NCBI GenBank assembly: GCA_001799195.1
Contig: MGSU01000060.1
Span: 1-15,650 of the forward strand
From: Deltaproteobacteria bacterium RIFOXYA12_FULL_61_11
Lineage (GTDB): Bacteria; Bdellovibrionota_F; JAHFAK01; YA12-FULL-61-11
Reading direction: 5' to 3'
Length of the DNA: 15,650 bases
The position numbers were made by a program, and so were the translations under genes. Shown piece after piece: positions 1,904-15,650 of the stretch. The notes beneath the pieces were generated by a model that was not told the DNA's origin, searched no databases, and saw only the letters and a list, made by a program, of their open reading frames with translations. Within the stretch, counting starts at the first letter, position 1, and each line of letters begins with the position of its first letter.

Positions 1904-3277
1904 TTACTCCTCGCGGCGGATCGGCTTGTTCAAGGGGGTGAACAACCCGGCGGTGACCAGACGATCGCCGAGCTCTACCGCGCGCCTGGTGTGCGCGATG
2001 ACCCCCATGGAAACATGCTCCCAGACCTCGATAATGACCACGTGGCCCTTGACCAACATGGGCATGTCCTCGATCCGGGCCTTGAGATAACCATCGGCGG
2101 CATGGAGGATGTCGTAGCTGTCGCCCACCTTCATGCGCCGATCCTCGCCGCCCTTGAGATAGATGATCTCCCGCTCTCCGATCAGGGTGTGTTCGGTCTC
2201 GACGGCAATGCAGGTGGTTTCGTTGTAGTAGTCGGCTTGCCTCGCCCGCACCTTGCGGTAGGGATTGAAAAAAGCCATGACCGGATAACCGCGCTGCAGC
2301 TCCTCGAAGCCCTCGGTGATCCTGGCCGTGATCAGCCCTCCCCGCGTGTTGACGATCTGTATGGTCCCGTACAGGGCCACCAGGAACCCGAGATCGTTGA
2401 ACAGGAAGGCGTCGGGATCCTCAATGGGCCGCCGGATGGAATACACGGTGAAGATGTCGCCCGTGGAGATGACCGAAGGATCATAGAACTGGATGTAGAT
2501 CTGGTCGTTGGTGCTGAGGATGACGCCTTCTTTGGCCGCGTGGACGACCTCTCCGATCTGCAGCGGCTCCTCGGCTGAGAAGTAGCTCTTGATCTTGAGC
2601 TCGTAGGTCAAGTAGTCGTCACCGTCCTCGGGCCGTATCGGCAAGCCCTCGTACCGCTTGCGCGAGAACAGGGGTTCTGGTTGGACCTCGGCCTCCTGGC
2701 TGAAGCGGGCTTCCATGATCTCGGCATCGGCTTCCTTAGCGAAGATCTCCAGCATGGGCGGAGCATCGCCGTCCCCGGGATAGAACTTGACCAGGTTACC
2801 GGGGAAGATCAGGTGCGGATTGCGGATGTACTGGTTGAGCTGCCACAGCTTGGGCCAGTAGAAGGGATCTCCGAGGAATTGGATGCAGATGTCCCACATC
2901 GTATCCCCGGGTTTGATGATGTAGGTGACAGGCGGGGTTTTCGGCACGTCCTCGAGCAACCTCACTTCTTTCTCTTTGGTACGGGAGGGCTCAACGTCGA
3001 AGCTGTTGGGATCGTCGATGTCCATGCCGGGGGGGCCGCCCTCAGGCGCCTCTGCAGGAGCCTCCGGCTTGGCCGGTTCCCCGATCACCTCGGGTTCCTC
3101 GACGATCGTGGGGGTATCGGTGGTGCCGATGGTCCGGGGCAGGTCTTCCTCGATGACCTCGAGCGGTTCCTCGTCCTGGGCAGACCCAGAGGTGGCCAGG
3201 ACAATCCCGGTCAGGACGGAAAGGACGACCTGGAACCTTCCCCGCGACCCGATCGGGTATGCACTGGAGCGGGCCAT
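1904..3277 (-). CDS. Exported LysM-domain protein
   Basis: The protein has 457 residues. The N-terminus has a positively charged start, a hydrophobic core (about 16-29) and a likely signal peptidase site near TSGSAQ/DEE. An acidic, proline-rich linker follows (about 35-115), then one LysM domain at about 118-167 (YIIKPGDTMWDICIQFLGDP at its start, ending near NLVKFYPGDG). The remaining ~290 residues look beta-rich and belong to no family I can name. LysM domains bind peptidoglycan, so a periplasmic or wall-associated role is likely. The frame stays open upstream to 3517, but that part overlaps the preceding gene; ATG at 3277 is preferred because it lies 2 nt after the upstream stop, has an AAGGGG ribosome site about 8 nt upstream, and gives a clean signal peptide. 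It is the last gene of the prkA operon. No clear terminator follows before the convergent ABC gene. Confidence 0.87.
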   Translation of the reverse strand: MARSSAYPIGSRGRFQVVLSVLTGIVLATSGSAQDEEPLEVIEEDLPRTIGTTDTPTIVEEPEVIGEPAKPEAPAEAPEGGPPGMDIDDPNSFDVEPSRTKEKEVRLLEDVPKTPPVTYIIKPGDTMWDICIQFLGDPFYWPKLWQLNQYIRNPHLIFPGNLVKFYPGDGDAPPMLEIFAKEADAEIMEARFSQEAEVQPEPLFSRKRYEGLPIRPEDGDDYLTYELKIKSYFSAEEPLQIGEVVHAAKEGVILSTNDQIYIQFYDPSVISTGDIFTVYSIRRPIEDPDAFLFNDLGFLVALYGTIQIVNTRGGLITARITEGFEELQRGYPVMAFFNPYRKVRARQADYYNETTCIAVETEHTLIGEREIIYLKGGEDRRMKVGDSYDILHAADGYLKARIEDMPMLVKGHVVIIEVWEHVSMGVIAHTRRAVELGDRLVTAGLFTPLNKPIRREE

Positions 3278-3279
3278 GC

Positions 3280-4002
3280 TCAATTCCCCTTCAAAGTGTT
3301 CAGGCGTTCCCTGGCCTTCCCCGCGGCGACGCTGGTGGGATACTCGGCCAGGAGCCGGCGGAGCAGTTTCTCGGCCAAGGACGTATTCTCGAGGTGGAGC
3401 TGGCAGAAGGCCGTTTTGAGCAGGGCGTCGGGAGCCTTCTGACCGTTCTTGTATTTCTCCACGACCTTGTTGAACTGATGGATGGCAAGGAGGTATTCCT
3501 TCTTGTCGTAGTAACACTCTCCGGTCCAGTAGAGGGCGTTGGACACGAACTCGTGGTCGGGAAACGCCCGCACGAAGGCATCGAAGGACACGATGGCCAG
3601 ATCGTACCGTCCGGCCTCGTAATCGGCCATGGCCTTTGCGTACTGCTCCTGCGGCAGCGAGGATGAGAGGTCCACGGTACGCGGAACATGTTCTTCCGGA
3701 ACCGGCTGTACCTCGGGAGCGGGTACCGGCGCGGGGGGCCGACGCTCGGGCCGAGGCTCCTCGGCCTTCGGCACGCTCGTCCGCCCGACCTGTCCGCGCT
3801 CGATCAGGGTTCGCAAGACATTGATCCTGTTATTGAGATCCTCGATCTGGGTGTTGGTTTCGACCACCTTGCGCCGCAATTCGAGCACCTCGCCGCGCAG
3901 GTCCTCGATCGAGGTCCTCGTCTCTTTCCCCCCGGAACAGCCTGCCATGATCACGAGAAGGCCGCCGAGCAGCGCGCCGCGGCCCGCGCCGAACCCGTTC
4001 AT
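3280..4002 (-). CDS. CpoB/YbgF-like lipoprotein: coiled coil plus TPR repeats
   Basis: The protein has 240 residues. The N-terminus carries a hydrophobic segment ending in a lipobox (IMAG-Cys22), so it is probably a lipoprotein; classical CpoB is a soluble periplasmic protein. Residues about 28-72 form a heptad-rich coiled coil ([20 protein letters not shown] and onward), followed by a Pro-rich linker (79-108) and three TPR-type repeats at about 118-151, 155-188 and 192-225. This is the architecture of the Tol-Pal partner YbgF/CpoB, which coordinates outer-membrane constriction with peptidoglycan synthesis in E. coli. No tol or pal genes are in view, so the CpoB role is by architecture only; it could be another TPR lipoprotein. 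Its ATG overlaps the spoVR stop (ATGA, 3999-4002), and the LysM gene starts 2 nt after its stop. Confidence 0.86.
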
Positions 4003-5486
4003 GTGAGATTGCGCTCCTTGTACTCGTTGCCATCGAAGGAGAGGTGGACCTTCTTCTTGTTCACCACGGTGAACAGGTTGACTGGACGATGCCAGATCTT
4101 GTGCAGGTTGCGCAGCGTCTCCTTGGCATAGTTCCCCTGGAGATCGATGCCTTCATGGCGGTGCTGGAGCATGAGCTCGGAACGGTTCTGGAAGTTGGCA
4201 TCCTCGACCTGGATGAAGGGCTGGCCGAAGTTGGTCAGACTGAAGAGCAGGGTCTGCTTGACCTTCTGAAACTCCCGCGTGTTGATCTCGTACCGGTTCG
4301 TGCGTTTGTTGAACTGGTAGGCGAACATCTTCGAACGCCGGCAGAAGTCCTCGGTGAGGAAGGTATCGATGAAGGTGACGTCGTTGTGGAGCTTGCGTAC
4401 CTCGAAGATCTTCTCGGTGCCCAAACCGAGCTTCTTGTCCCAACGGTCCCGTTGGCCGTAGTCCTCACAAGCCTCCCATTCCGGCCCGAACTGCCCGCGG
4501 TCCCAGCGCTCCTTGATGTCCCGGAAGAGTTCGATCCCGACTTTATAGGGGTTGATCGAACCGGGCCGCATGGCCAGGGTTCCGGAATGATGGTCGGCAA
4601 AATCGATGACCTCGGCCGCGCTGAGCGCCTTCTCGGTCATGATTCTGCTGTGCCAGTAAGAAGCCCAGCCCTCGTTCATGATCTTCGTCATGCCCTGCGG
4701 GGCAAAGTAGTAGGCCTCTTCACGGATGATCGCCATCACGTCGCGCTGCCAGCTCTCGAGGGAGGCGTGTTCCATGAGGAAGCCCAGGACGTCGCGTTCC
4801 GGTTCGGGTGGGAACTTGCGGGCCTGTTCGCGCTCCTTCTTGAGTTGGACCTCCTGCTGTTCCAGGTAGTCGCGCGGATTGATGTAGGAATCCATATAGT
4901 CCTTGGAGAGGAGCTTGCGGATCTTGGCCTCGATCTTGGCGCTGCCGTCGGGTTCCTCGGGGATGCGTTCCTCCTTACGCTTGACGAAGGGGGCGTGGTA
5001 GTCGATCAGATTGTCCAGGGACAGGCAGATGTCGATGAAACCCTCGACCTCGTCGACGCCGAACCGCTCCATGTAGCGACGGATCCGGGTGCCGTGGTTG
5101 GCCATGTCGTCCATCATCTTGCGGTTGGTCTTGCTGAAGTAGTAATTGTTCTTGAAGAAGTCGCAATGAGCGTAGACGTGGGCGATGACGGTCTTCTGGT
5201 CCACGTTGGCGTTGCACTCGAGGAGGTAGGCGTAACAGGGATCGTTGTTGATGACCATTTCGTAGATCTTGGAGAGGCCGTAGGTATAGCTCTTCTCCAT
5301 GCGCTCGTATTCCATGCCGAAGGACCAGTGCGGGTAACGGGTCGGGAAGCCGCCATAGGCCGCGATCTGGTTGATCTGGTCGTACTCGAGGATCTCGAAG
5401 ATGGTCTCGAAGAAGTCGAGGCCGTAGGCTTTGGCATAGCCCATGATCTCGTGGCGCGTCTCCTCGAGGTGCGGGGGCAGGCTCAT
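3999..5486 (-). CDS. spoVR: SpoVR family protein (YcgB-like)
   Basis: This 495-residue protein is close to the full family length and has typical SpoVR landmarks: an N-terminal block with [20 protein letters not shown] (45 onward), an H-x3-H pair in [17 protein letters not shown] (His103, His107), the segment [10 protein letters not shown] (270-279), and a C-terminal block with [18 protein letters not shown]. SpoVR was first described as needed for the spore cortex in Bacillus subtilis; the E. coli homologue YcgB belongs to the RpoS stress regulon. The biochemical activity is not established. The start ATG at 5486 has AGGAG 6 nt upstream. It lies 18 nt after yhbH and overlaps the CpoB-like gene by 4 nt. 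The family-defining triad with prkA and yhbH is intact here. Confidence 0.96.
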
Positions 5487-5504
5487 GGTTGCTCCTGAAG
5501 TCGG

Positions 5505-6611
5505 TTACTTACCTTTACCGAGGAAGTCTTTGATCGAGCGGTAGATCGCCTCGCGATTCTCGATGCGCGAGGTGATCAGCTTTTCCTCCCCGGTGAGCTT
5601 GCCGTCGAGATCCTTGATGAACTGCCCGCTGCCGTATTGGCTCTCGACCTGGCCGTAGCAGAACACGTTGACGATGGGGAAGAACTTGTCCTTGATCAGG
5701 TCGATGCACAGGTTGGTGTCGTCGCCAGACCAGTTGTCGCCGTCGGAGAAATGGAAGGGGTAGATGTTCCATTCGTCGGGCGGGTAGTCCTTCTCGATGA
5801 GCTGCAGACAGAGCTTGTAGGCGGAAGAGATGATGGTGCCGCCGCTCTCGCGGGTGCGGAAGAAGGTCTCGCGATCGACCTCCCTGGCCGTGGCGTCGTG
5901 GATGATGAAACGGGTCTGGATATCTTTGTACTGGTACTGCAACCAGGTGTCGATCCAGAAGGACTCGATGCGCACGATCTCCTTCTGCTCCTCGCCCATG
6001 GACCCGGACACGTCCATCATGTAGATGACGACCGCGTTGTTCTCCGGCTCCTCGGTGATCTTCCAGGAGCGGTAGTGCTTGTCCTCTTTCACCGGCACGA
6101 CCATGGGATCGCGAGGATCGTAGGCTCCGGAGACGATCATACGTTTGAGGGCGTGCTTGTACGTGCGCTTGAAATGGCGCAGACTCTCCGGCCCCGTGGT
6201 GCGGATGCCGGTGTAACGGTCCTTCAGGTTCTTGATGACCGCCTTGCCCTTGGGTTGAATGTCCGGCAGCTCCAGCTCCTCGCCGAGGATCTGGGCCAGC
6301 TCCTCCAGGGTCACGTCGACCTCGAGAGCGTGCTCGCCGGGTAGGTTGCCGGCCTCGGCCTGGCCTTCGGCCTCTTCGTCGCCGCCGAGAGGGTCGCCCG
6401 GCTCGCCGTCGCCCTGACCAACTCCGGGCTGTTCGCGCGGGCCGAACTTGAACCGCGGAATCTCGATGTAGGGCAAGGGGATGGTCACCATCTTCTTGCC
6501 CTGTCGGCCGATCAGCTCGCCGGTCGACATGTATTTCTTGAGCTCACGCTTGATCCGGCCCTTGACGATACGCCGGAAGCGCTGGTGATCGGCGTCGATC
6601 TTCTTGGCCAC
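5505..6611 (-). CDS. yhbH: YhbH/YeaH family (DUF444) VWA-domain protein
   Basis: This 368-residue protein starts with a basic helix-rich region ([20 protein letters not shown]), then has an acidic, glycine-rich low-complexity insert (about 58-92), then a von Willebrand A-type domain. The MIDAS metal site is visible as DVSGS (Asp200, Ser202, Ser204), with supporting Thr259 in SGGTIISS and Asp290 in FSDGDNW. The family (YhbH in Bacillus, YeaH in E. coli) almost always travels with PrkA and is thought to act as its partner, in the manner of other AAA+/VWA pairs; this is inference. The start codon is GTG (6609-6611), chosen because GAGGAGG lies 6 nt upstream and the N-terminus matches the family. 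It lies 30 nt after prkA. Known homologues respond to starvation or sporulation. Confidence 0.95.
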
Positions 6612-6641
6612 GCTGCCTCCTCACTCCCGCTCGCGGGAACC

Positions 6642-8711
<2,070 letters not shown>

Positions 8712-8748
8712 CCTCGCCCCACCTGGTTGAGCCCCACGACAAGGGGGC

Positions 8749-8778
8749 ATTCTAGGCTGAGGGCGGAAGGATCGTCAA
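8749..8778 (-). promoter_or_regulatory. sigma-70-type promoter of the prkA operon
   Basis: On the minus strand TTGACG (8778-8773) and TAGAAT (8754-8749) are separated by 18 nt, each matching the consensus at 5 of 6 positions. The predicted transcription start near 8742 gives a leader of about 31 nt before the prkA ATG at 8711. The tonB-like promoter upstream of 11939 carries the same TTGACGATC -35 block. Found by eye; not tested. Confidence 0.65.
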
Positions 8779-8802
8779 GGAATGGCAAGGAGGAACCGCG
8801 CT

Positions 8803-8826
8803 TTTTCGTAAGGTTTCAAACGAAAA
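8803..8826. promoter_or_regulatory. Inverted repeat upstream of the prkA promoter (candidate activator or repressor site)
   Basis: Perfect 7-bp arms TTTTCGT (8803-8809) and ACGAAAA (8820-8826) are separated by 10 nt. The site is A/T-rich in a GC-rich neighbourhood and sits about 61-84 nt upstream of the predicted prkA transcription start, a typical activator position. No regulator can be named. Confidence 0.4.
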
Positions 8827-8993
8827 TGGCTATGAACAATGATCAGTTCAGCCTTGGGTGGTTCGAGGGGTCCTGTCACCTCTCACCCCCACCATGCTCA
8901 TGCTTGCGCGTGGTGGGCCCCCCCGTCGGCGCCACCCCAACGAGGTACAAGTCAAGCCAGGGCCATCCACCCAAGGGTGGAACGATTCCTGAC

Positions 8994-9023
8994 ATATTAG
9001 TGGAGGGTTACGCTTTTATTCAA
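8994..9023 (-). promoter_or_regulatory. Possible second, weak promoter directed at prkA
   Basis: On the minus strand TTGAAT (9023-9018) and TAATAT (8999-8994) are separated by 18 nt; each matches the consensus at 4 of 6 positions. It is the most A/T-rich patch of the region and lies just downstream of the repeat element. Use would give a leader of about 270 nt for prkA, or a small RNA. Weak evidence. Confidence 0.25.
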
Positions 9024-9200
9024 CCGCGGACGGTAGGCGATCAGCCGCGCGGGAAGCGCGGCTCAGCGCCTGCCGGGCGCAAGGAGACGCGAGTCGAGCC
9101 GAGCGGAGGCGTACTCAGGGGTACGTCGAGCACGGCGAGGCCGCGTCGACGCCGCGGACGGTGGGCGATCAGCCGCGCGGGGTTGGCGATCAGCCGCGCG
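9024..9200. repeat. GC-rich repeat element with three copies of a 16-mer
   Basis: The 16-mer GGCGATCAGCCGCGCG occurs at 9036-9051, 9164-9179 and 9185-9200. The first two copies belong to a longer 30-nt direct repeat (9024-9053 and 9152-9181, one mismatch, offset 128 nt). The third follows 21 nt after the second and abuts the atpE stop codon at 9201. Inside lie a perfect hairpin AGCCGCGC/GCGCGGCT (9043-9050 and 9056-9063, 5-nt loop), a small CGTAC/GTACG hairpin near 9108-9123, and the palindrome GCGTCGACGC (9143-9152). It has no coding signature. It looks like a REP-type dispersed intergenic element; no other copy is in this window, and I cannot assign it to a named family. Confidence 0.7.
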
Positions 9201-9497
9201 TCAGAACTTACCGGAGAGGATAAAGGAAATGACCAGCGCGTAGATCACCAGGGACTCGATGAGGGCCAGACCGATGATCATAGGCATGAAGATCTTGTCC
9301 GAGGCGCCGGGGTTGCGCGCGATGCCCTCGAGGGCCGCGGTGACCGCCCGGCCTTGGCCGAGCGCGCCGCCGAACGCGGCGATGGCGATGGAGATCGCGG
9401 CGGCCATGGCATACCACTTGGAAGCATCCGCATCGGCTTCAGAAGCAAAGGCAAGACCACAACTCAGCATCAGGGCGACGGAAACCAACTTTTTCAT
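9201..9497 (-). CDS. atpE: ATP synthase F0 subunit c
   Basis: This 98-residue protein forms the rotor ring of F-type ATP synthase. Helix 1 and the polar loop contain GGALGQGRAV and EGIARNP; helix 2 carries the ion-carrying carboxylate Glu81 in LIESLVIYALV. Gln48, Glu81, Ser82 and Tyr86 align without gaps to Na+-site ligands Gln32, Glu65, Ser66 and Tyr70 of the Ilyobacter ring, but the Thr67 position is Leu, so ion choice is open. The N-terminus has about 18 extra residues that look like a cleavable signal peptide (MKKLVSVALMLSCGLAFA, then SEAD), leaving a mature chain near 80 residues. ATG 9497 has a strong AAAGGAG site. The 49-nt gap to atpB includes a small TTAGG/CCTAA hairpin (9517-9533) and may tune its high expression. 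Confidence 0.96.
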   Translation of the reverse strand: MKKLVSVALMLSCGLAFASEADADASKWYAMAAAISIAIAAFGGALGQGRAVTAALEGIARNPGASDKIFMPMIIGLALIESLVIYALVISFILSGKF

Positions 9498-9546
9498 CGT
9501 ATCACTCCTTTGGTAATTAGGGGTTACTCCTAAGTGCTGCTCGTAC

Positions 9547-10251
9547 TCAATGATCGTGGGCCACGGCCATGCTCAGATATACGATCGAGAGCATGGTGAA
9601 GATGAAGGCCTGCAGGAAGGCTACCCAGATCCCAAAACCCAGGAAAATGACCGGGACGAGGATCGGGACGAGATCGGAGAACTGGGCCAAGACGGCGTGA
9701 TCGCCGTTGATGTTCCCCCACAGGCGCAGGGTCAGGGACATGGGCCGCACACAGTGGCTGATCACCTCGATGATCACCATCATCGGGGCGAGATAGATCA
9801 CCGGGCCCATGAAATGCTTGACGTACCCGGCGCCGTGAGCCCGGAAACCGAAATAATGGGTGGCGACGAAGATGACCAGCGCACAGGCGGCATTGTTGTG
9901 GAGGTTGCTGGTCGGCGGCAGGAAACCCGGGATGACACCGAGCAGGTTGCTGACGAAGATATAGATGAAGGACGTCGCGATCAGGGGGATGAATTTGTCG
10001 GCGTCATGTCCGGCCAATCCCTTGACGAGACCGTAGAGCTTGTCGATCCCAAAATCATACACGGTCAGGAAGGAGAGCTTCGCCTCGGGCAAGATGTTCC
10101 CTTGGGCCTTGGCCTGCCTGGCAGCAAGCCGCTGCACGGCGATGACCGAGGAGATGAGGATGAACAGCATGACGAAGATGGCGGCGGCAAGTTGTCCGGG
10201 CAGATCCTGAAGGTAAGGAATGCTGCCGAACCAGGTGAACCCGTGCTCCAT
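9547..10251 (-). CDS. atpB: ATP synthase F0 subunit a
   Basis: This 234-residue membrane protein is the stator half-channel subunit that works against the c-ring. It has about five or six transmembrane segments (for example 20-40, 88-108, 121-133, 149-165, 192-228). The essential arginine is Arg176 in MSLTLRLWGN, matching Arg210 of E. coli subunit a, with Asn180 nearby and the family segment FLQAFIFTMLSIVYLSMAV at the end. The usual GNMYAGE or GNIMGHE stretch reads GNINGDH. ATG at 10251 lies 3 nt after the atpI-like stop, so the genes are coupled. Subunit b, delta and F1 genes are not in view; a split atp locus is common in deltaproteobacteria. Confidence 0.96.
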   Translation of the reverse strand: MEHGFTWFGSIPYLQDLPGQLAAAIFVMLFILISSVIAVQRLAARQAKAQGNILPEAKLSFLTVYDFGIDKLYGLVKGLAGHDADKFIPLIATSFIYIFVSNLLGVIPGFLPPTSNLHNNAACALVIFVATHYFGFRAHGAGYVKHFMGPVIYLAPMMVIIEVISHCVRPMSLTLRLWGNINGDHAVLAQFSDLVPILVPVIFLGFGIWVAFLQAFIFTMLSIVYLSMAVAHDH

Positions 10252-10254
10252 AGA

Positions 10255-10662
10255 TCACTCTGCTCCCAGCCGATGAGATCCGAGCGTGCCGACCAACAGG
10301 GCCGGAATGAAGGTCGAGTAACCGAGGGCCACGGCCAACGGTTCGACCGGCAGGCAGCGTAATATCCAGCCAAGAATCAAAAGTAAAGCAAGAAACTTCA
10401 AGGCGAAGAGAATCACGTTGAGGGCACGACGGGTCCGCCGCAAGAGCAGGTTCCTCAACAGGGCGGTCAACACCGCCAAGTTGCCCCACCCTACCACGCC
10501 GCCCACCAGCACCCCTTGCCAAAACTCTTGGCCGGAGACCCCCAGAGCCGTCAGCGTGGCCACGAGGACCAGCCCTGCGTCGAGGTATAGGGCCCGACGT
10601 ATCCGAGCTTCGGCCTCTTGACCGTCCGGACTGGTCGTCACGGTGTCGCCACCTACGGTCAT
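10255..10662 (-). CDS. atpI: AtpI-like ATP synthase subunit I family membrane protein
   Basis: This 135-residue protein has four predicted transmembrane helices, at about 28-42, 48-70, 81-102 and 108-127, with a basic loop LLLRRTRRALN between the second and third. Size, topology and position directly upstream of atpB fit the AtpI / ATP synthase subunit I family, which is weakly conserved and implicated in c-ring assembly or Mg2+ supply. ATG 10662 has GGAG about 5 nt upstream. The first ~23 residues are polar and could be cytoplasmic. Assignment rests mainly on context and topology. Confidence 0.78.
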   Translation of the reverse strand: MTVGGDTVTTSPDGQEAEARIRRALYLDAGLVLVATLTALGVSGQEFWQGVLVGGVVGWGNLAVLTALLRNLLLRRTRRALNVILFALKFLALLLILGWILRCLPVEPLAVALGYSTFIPALLVGTLGSHRLGAE

Positions 10663-10743
10663 GATCTCCGTTCTCCGCGCTGGGGAACACGTGAGGCACC
10701 CGACGGGGTTCCCCCGGCTGCCCAGGTCAGCCTCGTACTGCAG

Positions 10744-10965
10744 TCAGCGCAGTTTTTCAAAGAATTTCTTCAACCGCAGGAGTACGGCGAAGGCGGCGAA
10801 GAACCCTACCACGGCTCCGGCCAGGACCCCGTACGGCGAAGAAGCGAAATGTCGGTCCGCGCTCCAGCCGAGCAGGAGGGGGGCAACCACGGCCGCGGCG
10901 ATCTCCACACCCAAGGTGCCAAGGGTCAGGATCTTGGCCATGCGTGAGGCGCCATCTGGTTTCAT
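10744..10965 (-). CDS. AtpZ/AtpR-like small membrane protein (F0F1-ATPase accessory)
   Basis: This 73-residue protein has two hydrophobic helices (about 12-31 and 41-60) separated by a short loop (SADRHFASSPYG) and a basic tail RLKKFFEKLR. This is the form of the AtpZ / putative F0F1-ATPase subunit family, usually encoded just before atpI. ATG 10965 overlaps the stop of the tonB-like gene as ATGA (10962-10965) and is preferred for this coupling; a second ATG at 10941 would give MAKILTLG... and cannot be excluded. The frame is open further upstream to 11112 but that part overlaps the preceding gene. An 81-nt gap with nothing notable separates it from atpI. Confidence 0.75.
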   Translation of the reverse strand: MKPDGASRMAKILTLGTLGVEIAAAVVAPLLLGWSADRHFASSPYGVLAGAVVGFFAAFAVLLRLKKFFEKLR

Positions 10966-11939
10966 CGCAAGATCTGCTGGAAGAAGCTGTAGGAGATCTC
11001 GCCGATGAAGGAGAAAGGAATGCGAATGGTTCCATCCGCTTCGACCAACAAGGCAGGTGGATTGAGGAACGGCTGCGCCGCCTGGACTGACCTGATCGCT
11101 TCTTCGTCCCAATCCCGATAGCCCGAGGACTTTTGTACCAGCACTTGCTGCAATTTACCGCGCCGGTCGAGGACGAGCTCGACCTGGGCGACGACCAGGT
11201 TCGGAGGAGAGTTCCGGGTCACGGCATTGATCCTGTCGAAGGCCGGTTGCGGTCTCCAGTTGTAGCTTATCAGCCGCTTGATCCGCGTATAATAACTGCC
11301 GTAGAGGAACTCGCGCGTATTGAGCCGGGTCAATTCGCCTTCCTCTCGGTTCTTGACGTGGTTGGGGTCGTACGGCACGGTGAATTTGCTGAGCAGAGCC
11401 GACGAGAGATTCAGATCGAGCTTGCGTTCTGCCAACTTCGCCCGCAACTCGGCCTCTGTATCCCTTTGCTCGGCTTCTTCGGCCACGGTCTCGCTCGAAA
11501 CTTCCCCAGGCCTTTGCTCCGGCTGCTCCCCGGTTTCCTCGAGCGGCCGTCGGGGTTTGGTACGAGGGGCCGTCCGCACCGGCGGAGTGTGCATCGGCCG
11601 TGGTTCGAGGGCAACCTCGGCCGGGACCGAGGGGATGTTGGTGGCTATTCGGGCTCGGGTCTCGGTATCGACACGCCGGTCTTTGTCCGAGAGGAATTCA
11701 GCCTGTTCCGGGCGTTCGCGCCGGGTCCGGTCGTCGTCTAAAAGATCGACCACCTGCTTGCGCTCCGGCTCGGGCGGCTGCTCGGGGAGGGTCTCGGGGG
11801 TCGGGGGAGCGAGCAATTCGACCAGGAGCTCGGGTTCCTCGGCCTGGGGTTCCATGGCCGGTTCCGGCACCAGGTTCAGGACGGCCAAGTGCAGGAGCAG
11901 GGACAGCGCCAAGGCTAGTCCGAGTACTCCGTTCCGCAT
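10962..11939 (-). CDS. TonB-like energy transducer protein
   Basis: This 325-residue protein has a single N-terminal transmembrane helix (about 5-24) carrying the SxxxH pattern (Ser13, His17) that couples TonB to ExbB/ExbD. A long Pro/Glu/Arg-rich periplasmic stretch follows (26-165), containing the segment AEFLSDKDRRVDTETRARI (80-98) that I associate with deltaproteobacterial TonB-like proteins. The C-terminal domain (about 212-315) looks like a TonB C-terminal fold: YTRIKRLISYNWRPQ, then VAQVELVLDRRGKLQQVLV and a final IRIPFSFIG strand. It would pass inner-membrane energy to an outer-membrane partner; TolA is the alternative. No exbB/exbD or receptor gene is in view. It heads the atpZ-atpI-atpB-atpE cluster, with ATGA coupling to atpZ. 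The SD upstream of ATG 11939 (GGAAGGGAAG, about 10 nt away) is weakly spaced. Confidence 0.82.
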   Translation of the reverse strand: MRNGVLGLALALSLLLHLAVLNLVPEPAMEPQAEEPELLVELLAPPTPETLPEQPPEPERKQVVDLLDDDRTRRERPEQAEFLSDKDRRVDTETRARIATNIPSVPAEVALEPRPMHTPPVRTAPRTKPRRPLEETGEQPEQRPGEVSSETVAEEAEQRDTEAELRAKLAERKLDLNLSSALLSKFTVPYDPNHVKNREEGELTRLNTREFLYGSYYTRIKRLISYNWRPQPAFDRINAVTRNSPPNLVVAQVELVLDRRGKLQQVLVQKSSGYRDWDEEAIRSVQAAQPFLNPPALLVEADGTIRIPFSFIGEISYSFFQQILR

Positions 11940-11987
11940 GGTGGAAAGCTTCCCTTCCCCCCCTCGAGGGCCAATGACCGTAACCGT

Positions 11988-12018
11988 ATCATATCTCCAC
12001 GAACCCTCCGATCGTCAA
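11988..12018 (-). promoter_or_regulatory. sigma-70-type promoter of the tonB-like/atp operon
   Basis: On the minus strand TTGACG (12018-12013) and TATGAT (11993-11988) match the consensus at 5 of 6 positions each; the spacer of 19 nt is slightly long. The predicted start near 11981 gives a leader of about 42 nt to ATG 11939. The leader contains the palindrome CCCTCGAGGG (11961-11970). Confidence 0.5.
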
Positions 12019-12037
12019 GAACACCCCTCTGGAGCCC

Positions 12038-12055
12038 CCCTCGAATTTTCGAGGG
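12038..12055. repeat. Perfect inverted repeat CCCTCGAA/TTCGAGGG
   Basis: Arms CCCTCGAA (12038-12045) and TTCGAGGG (12048-12055) flank TT; as RNA this is a 7-bp stem with a 4-nt loop. On the plus strand it is followed by TTTCTTC, a weak T-run. It lies about 20 nt upstream of the -35 of the tonB-side promoter, so it could be an operator or a barrier. Its CCCTCGA core recurs in the palindrome at 11961-11970. Confidence 0.5.
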
Positions 12056-12127
12056 TTTCTTCGACAATTCCGCAGGTACCGAGATCCAGCAACCGGGAAT
12101 AACTCCTTCTAGGAAAGCCTCCCGATC

Positions 12128-12139
12128 CGGGATATCCCG
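12128..12139. repeat. Perfect 12-bp palindrome CGGGATATCCCG
   Basis: Uninterrupted dyad in the middle of the divergent region, about 55 nt upstream of the operator-like repeat. It may be a regulator binding site; there is no direct support beyond symmetry. Confidence 0.35.
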
Positions 12140-12188
12140 CCTGGCTCGTATTTTGCTTTCGGTGCGCGATCGACCTAGGGGTGGACTT

Positions 12189-12209
12189 TGGGATTGACAA
12201 GCAATCCCA
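12189..12209. promoter_or_regulatory. Operator-like inverted repeat overlapping a -35 box
   Basis: Perfect 8-bp arms TGGGATTG (12189-12196) and CAATCCCA (12202-12209) flank a 5-nt spacer, and the -35 hexamer TTGACA (12194-12199) lies inside. A dimeric helix-turn-helix protein bound here would block RNA polymerase, so repression is the simplest reading. The regulator is unknown and not encoded in view. Confidence 0.5.
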
Positions 12210-12223
12210 TCCGCGAATAGGGT
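12194..12223 (+). promoter_or_regulatory. Candidate promoter of the large lipoprotein gene
   Basis: A perfect TTGACA -35 (12194-12199), an 18-nt spacer and TAGGGT (12218-12223), which keeps the three most conserved -10 bases (T, A and final T). The predicted start near 12230 gives a leader of about 108 nt that contains the terminator-like structure at 12253-12313. Confidence 0.5.
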
Positions 12224-12252
12224 CTCGGCCAGTATTTTCAGGGAGTATTCCG

Positions 12253-12313
12253 GGCCGGCCGGCTTGCCGCATGAAGTGTTGATCAACAAGCGAGCCGTCC
12301 GGCCTTTTTTTTT
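12253..12313 (+). terminator. Strong intrinsic terminator in the leader of the lipoprotein gene (candidate attenuator)
   Basis: The left arm 12253-12267 (starting GGCCGG) pairs with 12290-12304 (ending CCGGCC): about 14 of 15 positions pair, including one G-U, with one internal C-U mismatch. Nine T follow directly (12305-12313). The 22-nt loop contains the palindrome GTTGATCAAC (12278-12287). No plus-strand gene lies upstream in this intergenic region; the structure ends 24 nt before the ATG at 12338, between the predicted promoter and the gene. That position suggests conditional termination of the leader transcript. It could instead simply stop stray plus-strand transcription. Confidence 0.75.
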
Positions 12314-12337
12314 CAACGGCGAAACGAGGGGGTTTCC

Positions 12338-15300
12338 ATGAAGTCGTCAAGGTGTAGCACGGTGAGCGGGCTCCTGGCCCTGCTCGGCATCCTGTTCCTG
12401 ACCACGGGCTGTCCCGGCATGTTCGTGGTAGACGAAGAAGAGCCCGTCGATGACGGAGAACAGGTTAACCAAGAAATCGAGGAATGGGTCGGCTCCACCA
12501 ACATCAAGTTCCCTGAGGGCGCCTTCCGCGGCGGTTATACCTTTGATTACGAGAGACCCGCAGACCTGGACGAGGTGGTCGACCTCATGGCAGGGGTTGA
12601 AGTCCTGGTCGAACCGACCGAGGGGGTTGAATGGATCGACGCCCTGCACCTCGAACTCACCTCCAAGGACGGCGAAGAGCTGCGGCTCCTCCAGCCCATC
12701 GAGTTCCGCATCCGCGCGAACCGTTTTCCCGAGGACATCGACCTCGAGACCGCGCCGCTGACCTCCGGGTACGACGAAGATCTCGACACCTTCTACCTGG
12801 TGCGGGACGACTATAAATATCAGGATGACGGCGAGGGAGATGTGTCCGCCGACGATCCCGCCCCGACCGATGATCCCGCAGACGGCGAAACGACCGGCCT
12901 GCAGCGGGTACGAGTCCTCGTGGCTCTGGTGGGCTCGGGCAACAGCCTCATCGGCGTGCCCTTCACCACCGTTGCTTACAAAAAAGGTCCGAACGTCTTC
13001 TTCACCATCGCCCCGGCCCAGGTCCGCGAGGGCGTCCTCCCGGCCAATACCCGCATCATCTGGTCCGTGTTCGTGATCCCAGACGGCCAGGACGTGGTCG
13101 TCAACGACGTCAAGATCGACGACCTGACCGGAAACTCGGACGGTAAAGAGAACCACACCCCCACGGTCGAAAACATCTCCGCCCAACGGGTCAAGGAAGG
13201 CGAGCGCCTGGACATCTTCGTCATCGCGGACGATTCCGACACCCGGGACCGTCTCACCTACAGCTCCGAGGGCGAACTGCCCAAGTTCATGGTCCTCAAG
13301 AACGACAACCTGGTGGTCAAGCCGGGCTACGACGTGGTCGCCGGCGGTGAAACCGAGAAGATCTTCACCCTCACCCTGGTGGTTGCAGACAACGGCCTGC
13401 CACCCAAGAAGGTCAAGGTCACCTTCGACGTCGCAGTCGAGAACGTCGACCAGCCGCCACAACTCGTTATCGCGAGCGACAAGCCCTTCCCGGCCCAGTG
13501 CCGCGAAGGTGAAGAGCTCCACTATGCCTTTAAGGCCACGGATCCGGACGGCGACCCGGTCGTTTACGGTCTCGGCGCCCTGCCCTATTTCAAACCCTCG
13601 TTCGGCACCGACGGCAAACCCGTGCTCGACGAGAGCGGCGACGTGGTCCAGGTTCCGGCGGCCAGCATCGACCAGACCACGGGCGAGTTCGTCTTCTCGT
13701 GCGTGAACTCGATCGTCCCGGGGTACAAGCAATCGCTCGACGTCACCCTCGAGGTCTACGCGGCCAACACGGTCGAGCAGCTCTTCGCCGGCACGCCCAG
13801 CCGCTTCACCCTGAACGTGCTCAACGTCAACCAGCCACCGGCCTTGAGCCTGGTCCTCGATGAGGGCACTCCCGAGGCCATCGCCACGGCCTACGCCACG
13901 ACCAAGACCTTGAAGGTCAACGAGAACGACCGTCTGCTCTTCACCCTCGACGCCCAGGACATCGACGGCGACCTGGTCACCAAGCGGCAATGGCGCATCG
14001 AACCGATGTGGCCCGAGGAGTGCGTGCACAACGGTGACTGGACCCTCAACCTCCCCGAGGGTGCCGAGGAGTTCTTGCCGCGCGAACAGTACCAGCTCCT
14101 CGCCAATAACGGCGAACCGGTGATCAGCTTCGATGAGCGCTCCGGCCTGATGAGCGTCTTCTTCCCGATCTGTCTGGTCAAAGGCGAACTCAAGCTCGAC
14201 GAAGTGTTCAAGTTCACCCTGGTCGCCTCGGCCATGGACCAGTACAACACCATGTCGCCCGAGCTGCGTATCCCGGTGGAGGTCAAGAACACGGTCATCG
14301 CCCCCTTCCTGGCCAACAACTTCCAGAAGGAATACCAGGCCAACGAGGGCGGCTGGTGGCACCAACTCTTCCAGAACCGCCCCTGTCAGAACGGAACGTG
14401 CGGCCTGCAGCTCGGGTTCGGGGGCCAGATCGTCGCCGTGGAAGACCGCGGGTACAACCTCGTCCTCAACACCATCCACACAGTCGATGAGAGTGGCGAC
14501 GTGCTCGACGACGTCACCGCGACCTATTACAAGCCAAAAGATCAAGCCAACTCACTGCTCTGGCTGCAGAAGGGTCCCTTTGCCGACAACATGCCCGTCG
14601 CCGGCACGACCGACCAGAACAAGGGCAACGACTGGAACCTGCGCTGGGCCATCCCCTACAACACCACGGTGCCCGGCCTGGTGAAGCACTACCGCCTCAG
14701 CTTCACCGCCAGCGACCCCAAGATCCCCAGCACCGATGCGAGGTATGCGGCCACTTCTCTGCCCTTCTCCTTCGACGTGGTCGTGAGCAACTCCAATCAG
14801 AATCCGTACTACCTCGTCGACCAAGGCACGACCCTGCCACAGGGTTTCTTCAACACGGTCGAGGGTGAGCGCAAGGTCGTCTACCTCGACCAGCTCTTCG
14901 GTGATCCGGACGGCGACACCCTGCTCTTCAAGCTCGACCAGACGAGCACGACCTATTCCAACGACCCGTTGAAACCGGGCGACAATCGCTTCCTCGAGAA
15001 GCCGGCCATCGACCAGAGCGGCGACCGCTCGGTCCTGACCTTTATCCCAAGCTACGATATCACTGCCCCACAAGGTGGCCAGGGCGGGGTCAGCATCCGC
15101 GTCGAAGCGACGGACGGAAGCCTCGGCACCGGGTATCGCGACCTGTGGTTCCCGGTCCAGAACACCATGCGCCGGCTCAGCCTCAAGCAATCCCAGGTCA
15201 AGGTCACGGTCTACGAACGCGGCTTCTGGGACCAGGGTTGCGATTTCGGTCGCTACTCCTGCGGCAGCTTTACCCTGAACTTCTCCAACTACCTCGATAA

Positions 15301-15650
15301 CCCGGACAACGACCTCCTGCTGGTCGACCCGGTGTTCGATCCGAGCGCGGACACCAACCCGCTCACCCCGCAGAAGAACGCCACCGAGCTGCTCCAGCCC
15401 GGTCCGCAGTTCGCTTGGAACGACCTTCCTCAGAGCTTGGTCGATCGCGACGGCGCAACCTTCACCTTCCAATACAAGGTCTACCAGAACAGCTACCAGG
15501 CCGAGGCCGACAAGCAGCTCCTCACCTTCGAGGTCGAGGTGCGCAACGCCAACCAAGGGCCTGCCTTCGCCCAGTTCGACCCGTTGCAGATCCAGGAAGG
15601 CGTGCCGGTCGAGATTAACCTCGACACCGTGTTCACGGATCCCGATGAAG
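12338..15650 (+). CDS. Large lipoprotein with cadherin/Ig-like repeats (3' end outside window)
   Basis: The plus-strand frame is open from ATG 12338 to the window edge: 1,104 residues without a stop, C-terminus missing. AGGGGG lies 5 nt upstream. The N-terminus is a lipoprotein signal: basic start, hydrophobic core (11-21) and lipobox LTTG-Cys25, then an acidic stretch. Repeats begin with an N-x-PP-like hinge and contain an Asp-rich turn: hinges near 272 (NHTPT), 371 (DQPPQ), 498 (NQPPA), 820 (NQNPY) and 1072 (NQGPA); Asp turns at 298 (DDSD), 402 (DPDGD), 541 (DIDGD), 856 (DPDGD) and 1101 (DPDE). This resembles cadherin-like or putative-Ig repeats, often Ca2+-binding, on secreted adhesins. 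Region 550-800 is less regular, with Cys pairs near 691-695. Probably a surface or periplasmic binding protein; ligand unknown. The long minus-strand frame across it is codon-aligned antisense and not a gene. Confidence 0.88.
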   Translation, partial: MKSSRCSTVSGLLALLGILFLTTGCPGMFVVDEEEPVDDGEQVNQEIEEWVGSTNIKFPEGAFRGGYTFDYERPADLDEVVDLMAGVEVLVEPTEGVEWIDALHLELTSKDGEELRLLQPIEFRIRANRFPEDIDLETAPLTSGYDEDLDTFYLVRDDYKYQDDGEGDVSADDPAPTDDPADGETTGLQRVRVLVALVGSGNSLIGVPFTTVAYKKGPNVFFTIAPAQVREGVLPANTRIIWSVFVIPDGQDVVVNDVKIDDLTGNSDGKENHTPTVENISAQRVKEGERLDIFVIADDSDTRDRLTYSSEGELPKFMVLKNDNLVVKPGYDVVAGGETEKIFTLTLVVADNGLPPKKVKVTFDVAVENVDQPPQLVIASDKPFPAQCREGEELHYAFKATDPDGDPVVYGLGALPYFKPSFGTDGKPVLDESGDVVQVPAASIDQTTGEFVFSCVNSIVPGYKQSLDVTLEVYAANTVEQLFAGTPSRFTLNVLNVNQPPALSLVLDEGTPEAIATAYATTKTLKVNENDRLLFTLDAQDIDGDLVTKRQWRIEPMWPEECVHNGDWTLNLPEGAEEFLPREQYQLLANNGEPVISFDERSGLMSVFFPICLVKGELKLDEVFKFTLVASAMDQYNTMSPELRIPVEVKNTVIAPFLANNFQKEYQANEGGWWHQLFQNRPCQNGTCGLQLGFGGQIVAVEDRGYNLVLNTIHTVDESGDVLDDVTATYYKPKDQANSLLWLQKGPFADNMPVAGTTDQNKGNDWNLRWAIPYNTTVPGLVKHYRLSFTASDPKIPSTDARYAATSLPFSFDVVVSNSNQNPYYLVDQGTTLPQGFFNTVEGERKVVYLDQLFGDPDGDTLLFKLDQTSTTYSNDPLKPGDNRFLEKPAIDQSGDRSVLTFIPSYDITAPQGGQGGVSIRVEATDGSLGTGYRDLWFPVQNTMRRLSLKQSQVKVTVYERGFWDQGCDFGRYSCGSFTLNFSNYLDNPDNDLLLVDPVFDPSADTNPLTPQKNATELLQPGPQFAWNDLPQSLVDRDGATFTFQYKVYQNSYQAEADKQLLTFEVEVRNANQGPAFAQFDPLQIQEGVPVEINLDTVFTDPDE

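Follow-up and report, generated by a model that had tools for sequence, protein, structure and literature searches.

Does the transcription terminator that appears to lie between the promoter and the start codon of a very large lipoprotein gene control the entry of RNA polymerase into that gene? The question is raised by positions 12230-12337 of the window, a 15,650-nt stretch of a contig from Deltaproteobacteria bacterium RIFOXYA12_FULL_61_11, which an earlier note had read as a candidate attenuator or riboregulator. Direct reading combined with folding bears out the near-perfect 15-bp GC stem, the nine T and the 24-nt distance to the lipoprotein start on which that reading was built. The terminator hairpin (12252-12305, plus strand) has a predicted folding energy of -30.4 kcal/mol. 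Its 5' arm comprises 12252-12258 and 12260-12267 and its 3' arm 12290-12297 and 12299-12305, so that 15 pairs (7 + 8 bp) are interrupted by a single 1 × 1 C-U mismatch at 12259/12298. The outermost pair is a G-U that takes the first T of the T run, a tract of nine T on the plus strand (12305-12313, U9 in the transcript), which is followed by a 24-nt spacer (12314-12337) leading to the ATG of the lipoprotein gene at 12338. When the 64 nt located 5' of the T run were subjected to dinucleotide shuffling, only one of 400 shuffled sequences matched the stability of the hairpin, the shuffle mean being -7.3 kcal/mol, and the entire 88-nt leader (12229-12316) folds with a z-score of -3.1.

The 22-nt loop of the hairpin (12268-12289) contains a perfect palindrome, TGTTGATCAACA, at 12277-12288 of the plus strand; a loop palindrome had been proposed, and it extends slightly further than was claimed, to 12 nt. 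A loop-loop duplex formed through this palindrome has a predicted energy of -15.4 kcal/mol. Its role as a recurrent operator is ruled out by the presence of just one other occurrence of the 12-mer in 1.37 Mb of the genome, inside a gene. Downstream of the T run, the ribosome-binding region (12321-12336, plus strand) displays GAGGGG, a likely Shine-Dalgarno sequence, as part of the loop between the GAAAC and GUUUC arms of a small hairpin; in the predicted fold of the read-through RNA, four of the five arm bases are paired.

The claim that the terminator lies downstream of the predicted promoter of the lipoprotein gene withstands pattern statistics from the sampled part of the genome, which point to a single plus-strand site, the sigma-70-type promoter TTGACA-N18-TAGGGT at 12194-12223. 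The plain pattern TTGACA-N16-18-TANNNT occurs at 30 sites in 1.84 Mb; 28 of them are intergenic, all 28 of these face a co-directional gene, and this intergenic bias serves as the independent test of the promoter. With one mismatch permitted in the -35 box, the intergenic share peaks at spacers of 16-18. A weight matrix from whose training set the window was left out assigns the site a score of 17.8, equalled or exceeded by 19 intergenic and no genic sites, a score that is no independent test because the training sites were preselected for consensus and intergenic position. A scan of 11940-12337 with the genome-trained matrix detected no second plus-strand promoter-like site above a score of 5. 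A simple promoter scan missed the 12194-12223 site because it requires four of six matches in the -10 hexamer. Transcription is expected to start at ~12229-12231, and a start at ~12230 leaves about 22 nt ahead of the stem, close to the ~23 nt of the earlier estimate. Among the 28 promoters, this is the only one with a terminator (hairpin plus T tract) between itself and its gene.

The -35 box is located within a dyad with 8-bp arms and a 5-nt spacer, TGGGATTG-ACAAG-CAATCCCA (12189-12209), a possible operator; initiation may therefore be a site of regulation. The intergenic region 11940-12345 contains four dyads, compared with 0.63 expected from mononucleotide shuffles. Those at 12038-12055, 12128-12139 and 12189-12209 are each unique in 1.37 Mb and are candidate transcription-factor sites.

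The downstream gene (12338-15650, plus strand) encodes a giant repeat lipoprotein with the signal MKSSRCSTVSGLLALLGILFLTTGC and is open at the contig end; the reading frame from 12338 shows a lipoprotein-type signal and has no match in Pfam. Contig C146 (L013, minus strand) starts with the last 18 nt of the window in the same frame and proceeds through 2,708 codons of related repeats. The sequence overlap suggests that the gene probably runs on in-frame into C146, to a length of ~11.4 kb and ~3,800 amino acids, a join that is likely rather than proven because it falls in a repeat. Two smaller paralogous lipoproteins with Ig-like and cadherin-like domains are encoded elsewhere in the genome (C196 and C53), and no comparable hairpin and T tract lies upstream of either. 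The giant protein presumably has a surface role. On the other side of the intergenic region, a divergent gene for a TonB-C-domain protein (10962-11939, minus strand) possesses its own candidate promoter, TTGACG-N19-TATGAT, at 12018-11988. The nearest upstream gene co-directional with the lipoprotein gene is at 164-1843, and 1904-11939 is wholly minus strand, confirming that no upstream co-directional gene requires termination at this position.

The standing of the hairpin within the genome was assessed in a sample of 1.84 Mb (~40%) of the 4.64-Mb assembly, a fragmented draft of 342 contigs that is ~87% complete. Genes were called by a codon-usage script, which yielded 1,380 genes and a coding fraction of 86% in the first 1.37 Mb, and both strands of the 1.84 Mb were surveyed for runs of at least six T (n = 359). 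The 12252-12305 hairpin is the most stable associated with any of these runs, its T9 is the longest tract among the strong hairpins of the sample, and such length and such stem strength do not coincide at any other intergenic T run of the sample. Strong intrinsic terminators are scarce downstream of genes in the 1.84-Mb sample, and the genome encodes a full-length Rho; termination in this organism may be mainly Rho-dependent. A hairpin with T6 is found ~50 nt downstream of a tRNA-Ala gene (contig L196), which indicates that this type of signal is in use in the genome. The second strongest hairpin among the sample's T runs of seven or more, L086:14394-14447, belongs to an sRNA-like unit at L086:14317-14447, which consists of a TTGACA-type box, two strong hairpins and T8, lies ~185 nt before an ApbE-like gene and has no match in Rfam. 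Two further loci, L061:15479-15506 and L012:15055-15110, share a common hairpin sequence (GACAGCCGANAGNTCGGCTCAG) followed by TTTTTTCGAATC and possibly represent a repeated element.

On these sequence statistics, a GC hairpin and U tract on the sense strand precede the start codon, with the promoter upstream and none in between. Owing to this order of promoter, terminator, ribosome-binding site and start codon, transcription could scarcely reach the gene without passing the terminator, and the geometry of leader attenuation is well supported. We place the probability that the element, lying in the 5' leader of the giant lipoprotein gene, is a transcription attenuator at roughly 0.6. RNA polymerase would start at ~12230, produce a 22-nt single-stranded leader, and then the very stable hairpin and U9, upon which an RNA of ~84 nt would be released at ~12311-12313 in most rounds. 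The predicted short terminated RNA would span at most 12230-12313 of the plus strand, as judged from the promoter and terminator positions. The lipoprotein gene (~11 kb if C146 continues it) would be expressed by read-through polymerases only, and the element would cap or gate the production of a huge and costly surface protein. Termination in vivo, accumulation of the short RNA and read-through as the sole route to the gene are features that we infer from this arrangement.

The second question is whether read-through is switched. A search of 11900-12400 against Rfam returned no match up to E = 5, in line with the earlier remark that no clear aptamer precedes the stem. A riboswitch is rejected given the lack of a conserved aptamer, the empty Rfam search, the leader of ~22 nt and the absence of an alternative fold; a novel aptamer would need a transcription start farther upstream. 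Folded for each of the starts tested between 12000 and 12230, the transcript gave no competing antiterminator. In every case an unpaired 3' arm comes at a price of 16-20 kcal/mol, and the predicted folds thus offer no self-contained antiterminator. Antitermination of the RfaH/LoaP type is likewise rejected, since a single NusG-family (PF02357) protein, and no specialised paralog, is encoded in the ~87% complete draft. The genome encodes a CsrA protein, and the leader contains CAGGGA at 12239-12244, which we take to resemble the CsrA core; this 6-mer is no evidence for control of the leader by CsrA. The reading frames of the region, ATG-AAG-TGT-TGA in the hairpin loop and a TTG/GTG frame from 12264 or 12276 to the TGA at 12339-12341, both lack a ribosome-binding site and are not surprising in GC-rich DNA; a leader peptide is rejected on these grounds. 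Of the proposed attenuator or riboregulator, the geometry (promoter, terminator, ribosome-binding site and start) is supported, and the regulated part gains no support from these searches, as no Rfam family, aptamer-sized leader, antiterminator fold or homologous leader was found.

The alternatives differ in what the hairpin and its short transcript would be for. The region might be a small-RNA gene, whose ~84-nt product dimerises through its loop or acts on targets in trans, and whose downstream neighbor lives on leak-through. The strong promoter-to-terminator unit and the palindromic loop, with its predicted duplex of -15.4 kcal/mol, are compatible with it, the genome's second strong terminator (L086:14394-14447) likewise closes an sRNA-like unit that a TTGACA-type box precedes, and the Listeria RNA Rli51 combines both roles (PMC11394854). 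However, no copy, paralog or relative was found, the Rfam search was empty, and the lipoprotein start lies 24 nt past the T run, with no space for a promoter of its own, so that we regard this possibility as unlikely. The same 24 nt, insufficient for a promoter plus ribosome-binding site, weigh against the improbable proposal that the hairpin is an insulator, halting stray plus-strand transcription from the atp/TonB side, with the true start of the lipoprotein gene's transcript at the T run or beyond it. The upstream genes are all on the minus strand, and plus-strand transcripts there would indeed be antisense noise; yet the hairpin is preceded, not followed, by the sole plus-strand promoter-like site, and the genome rarely employs intrinsic terminators for such purposes. 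That the hairpin arose by chance or acts at the DNA level, as operator dyads or a cruciform with no part in termination, is suggested by the four dyads in one intergenic stretch and by the ease with which stems arise at high GC. This reading is nevertheless quite implausible, as only one in 400 shuffles was equally stable, the T9 directly adjoins the base of the stem and is on the strand that termination requires, and the hairpin is the strongest among all sampled T runs. Phase variation, in which slippage in the T9 would alter terminator strength and toggle the surface lipoprotein, draws on nine identical bases where length affects termination, ahead of a predicted surface protein; T8-T9 are ordinary in terminators and no second homopolymer is present, leaving it with very little probability.

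The preferred reading, an attenuator in the leader, faces difficulties of its own. So strong a terminator, if no antiterminator opposes it, would leave the gene almost silent, an odd arrangement unless a factor relieves it or leakage suffices, and a loop of 22 nt is long for a fast-folding terminator, which counts against attenuation. The most likely and most economical reading is a terminator in the leader, damping transcription of the giant gene with release of an RNA of ~84 nt. Regulated read-through is no more likely than simple constitutive damping. Should read-through be under control, the structure of the leader speaks less for a riboswitch than for a factor acting in trans, such as an RNA-binding protein, an antisense RNA or an sRNA, with the short 5' segment or the palindromic 22-nt loop as its target. 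The specific version in which a protein or antisense RNA bound to the palindromic loop, or dimerisation of the RNA, gates entry into the ~11-kb gene is rather doubtful.

Comparison among relatives yielded no counterpart of the locus. The lipoprotein gene has no relative in the one other phylum member compared, nothing beyond a weak repeat-domain match (G010) in a set of 41 genomes, and none in the genome-contig or viral-contig collections searched. No homologous leader was recovered from the other phylum genome, the 41 relatives, the genome and viral contigs, or the phages and plasmids searched, the last two of which gave no match to the leader DNA; no further copy of the hairpin element was found in the genome itself. 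A PrkA scan for relatives within the phylum returned matches from other phyla only, at 68-75% identity, and the atp locus of genome G001 is without TonB and lipoprotein neighbors. The lineage is barely sampled, with one other phylum genome among those compared.

If it terminates in vivo, the element would constitute an RNA-level gate on one of the bacterium's most expensive proteins, and the tested promoter consensus makes other leader elements of this lineage findable. Control by leader terminators is, as a class of mechanism, already well known. Like terminator-type riboswitches in Rfam, the locus places a leader terminator ahead of a coding region; unlike them, it has no Rfam match to E = 5, only ~22 nt before the stem and no alternative fold. 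A review covers how LoaP lets polymerase pass hairpin terminators and how RfaH controls giant adhesins (PMC7819879). As with RfaH/LoaP targets, a very long surface-protein gene here follows a leader with a terminator or pause signal, but in contrast to those systems a single NusG-family protein was found in the ~87% complete genome. In Listeria monocytogenes Rli51-mpl, premature termination in the 5' UTR releases a short RNA that may act in trans, and the terminator is influenced through a loop (PMC11394854). The two loci share an sRNA-sized 5' UTR, a premature terminator and read-through into the gene, a likeness of architecture alone with no sequence relation claimed; Rli51 is 121 nt long and has a predicted, more stable antiterminator (PMC11394854), whereas the leader described here is ~84 nt and none was found. 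In E. coli, 3' ends within 5' UTRs limit expression of the gene or release short stable RNAs, which may act in trans, and these ends were mapped experimentally (PMC7815308), whereas the present leader is known from its sequence. By analogy, and leaving aside the regulation of read-through, the element would work in the manner of the group formed by the E. coli 5'-UTR ends and Rli51.
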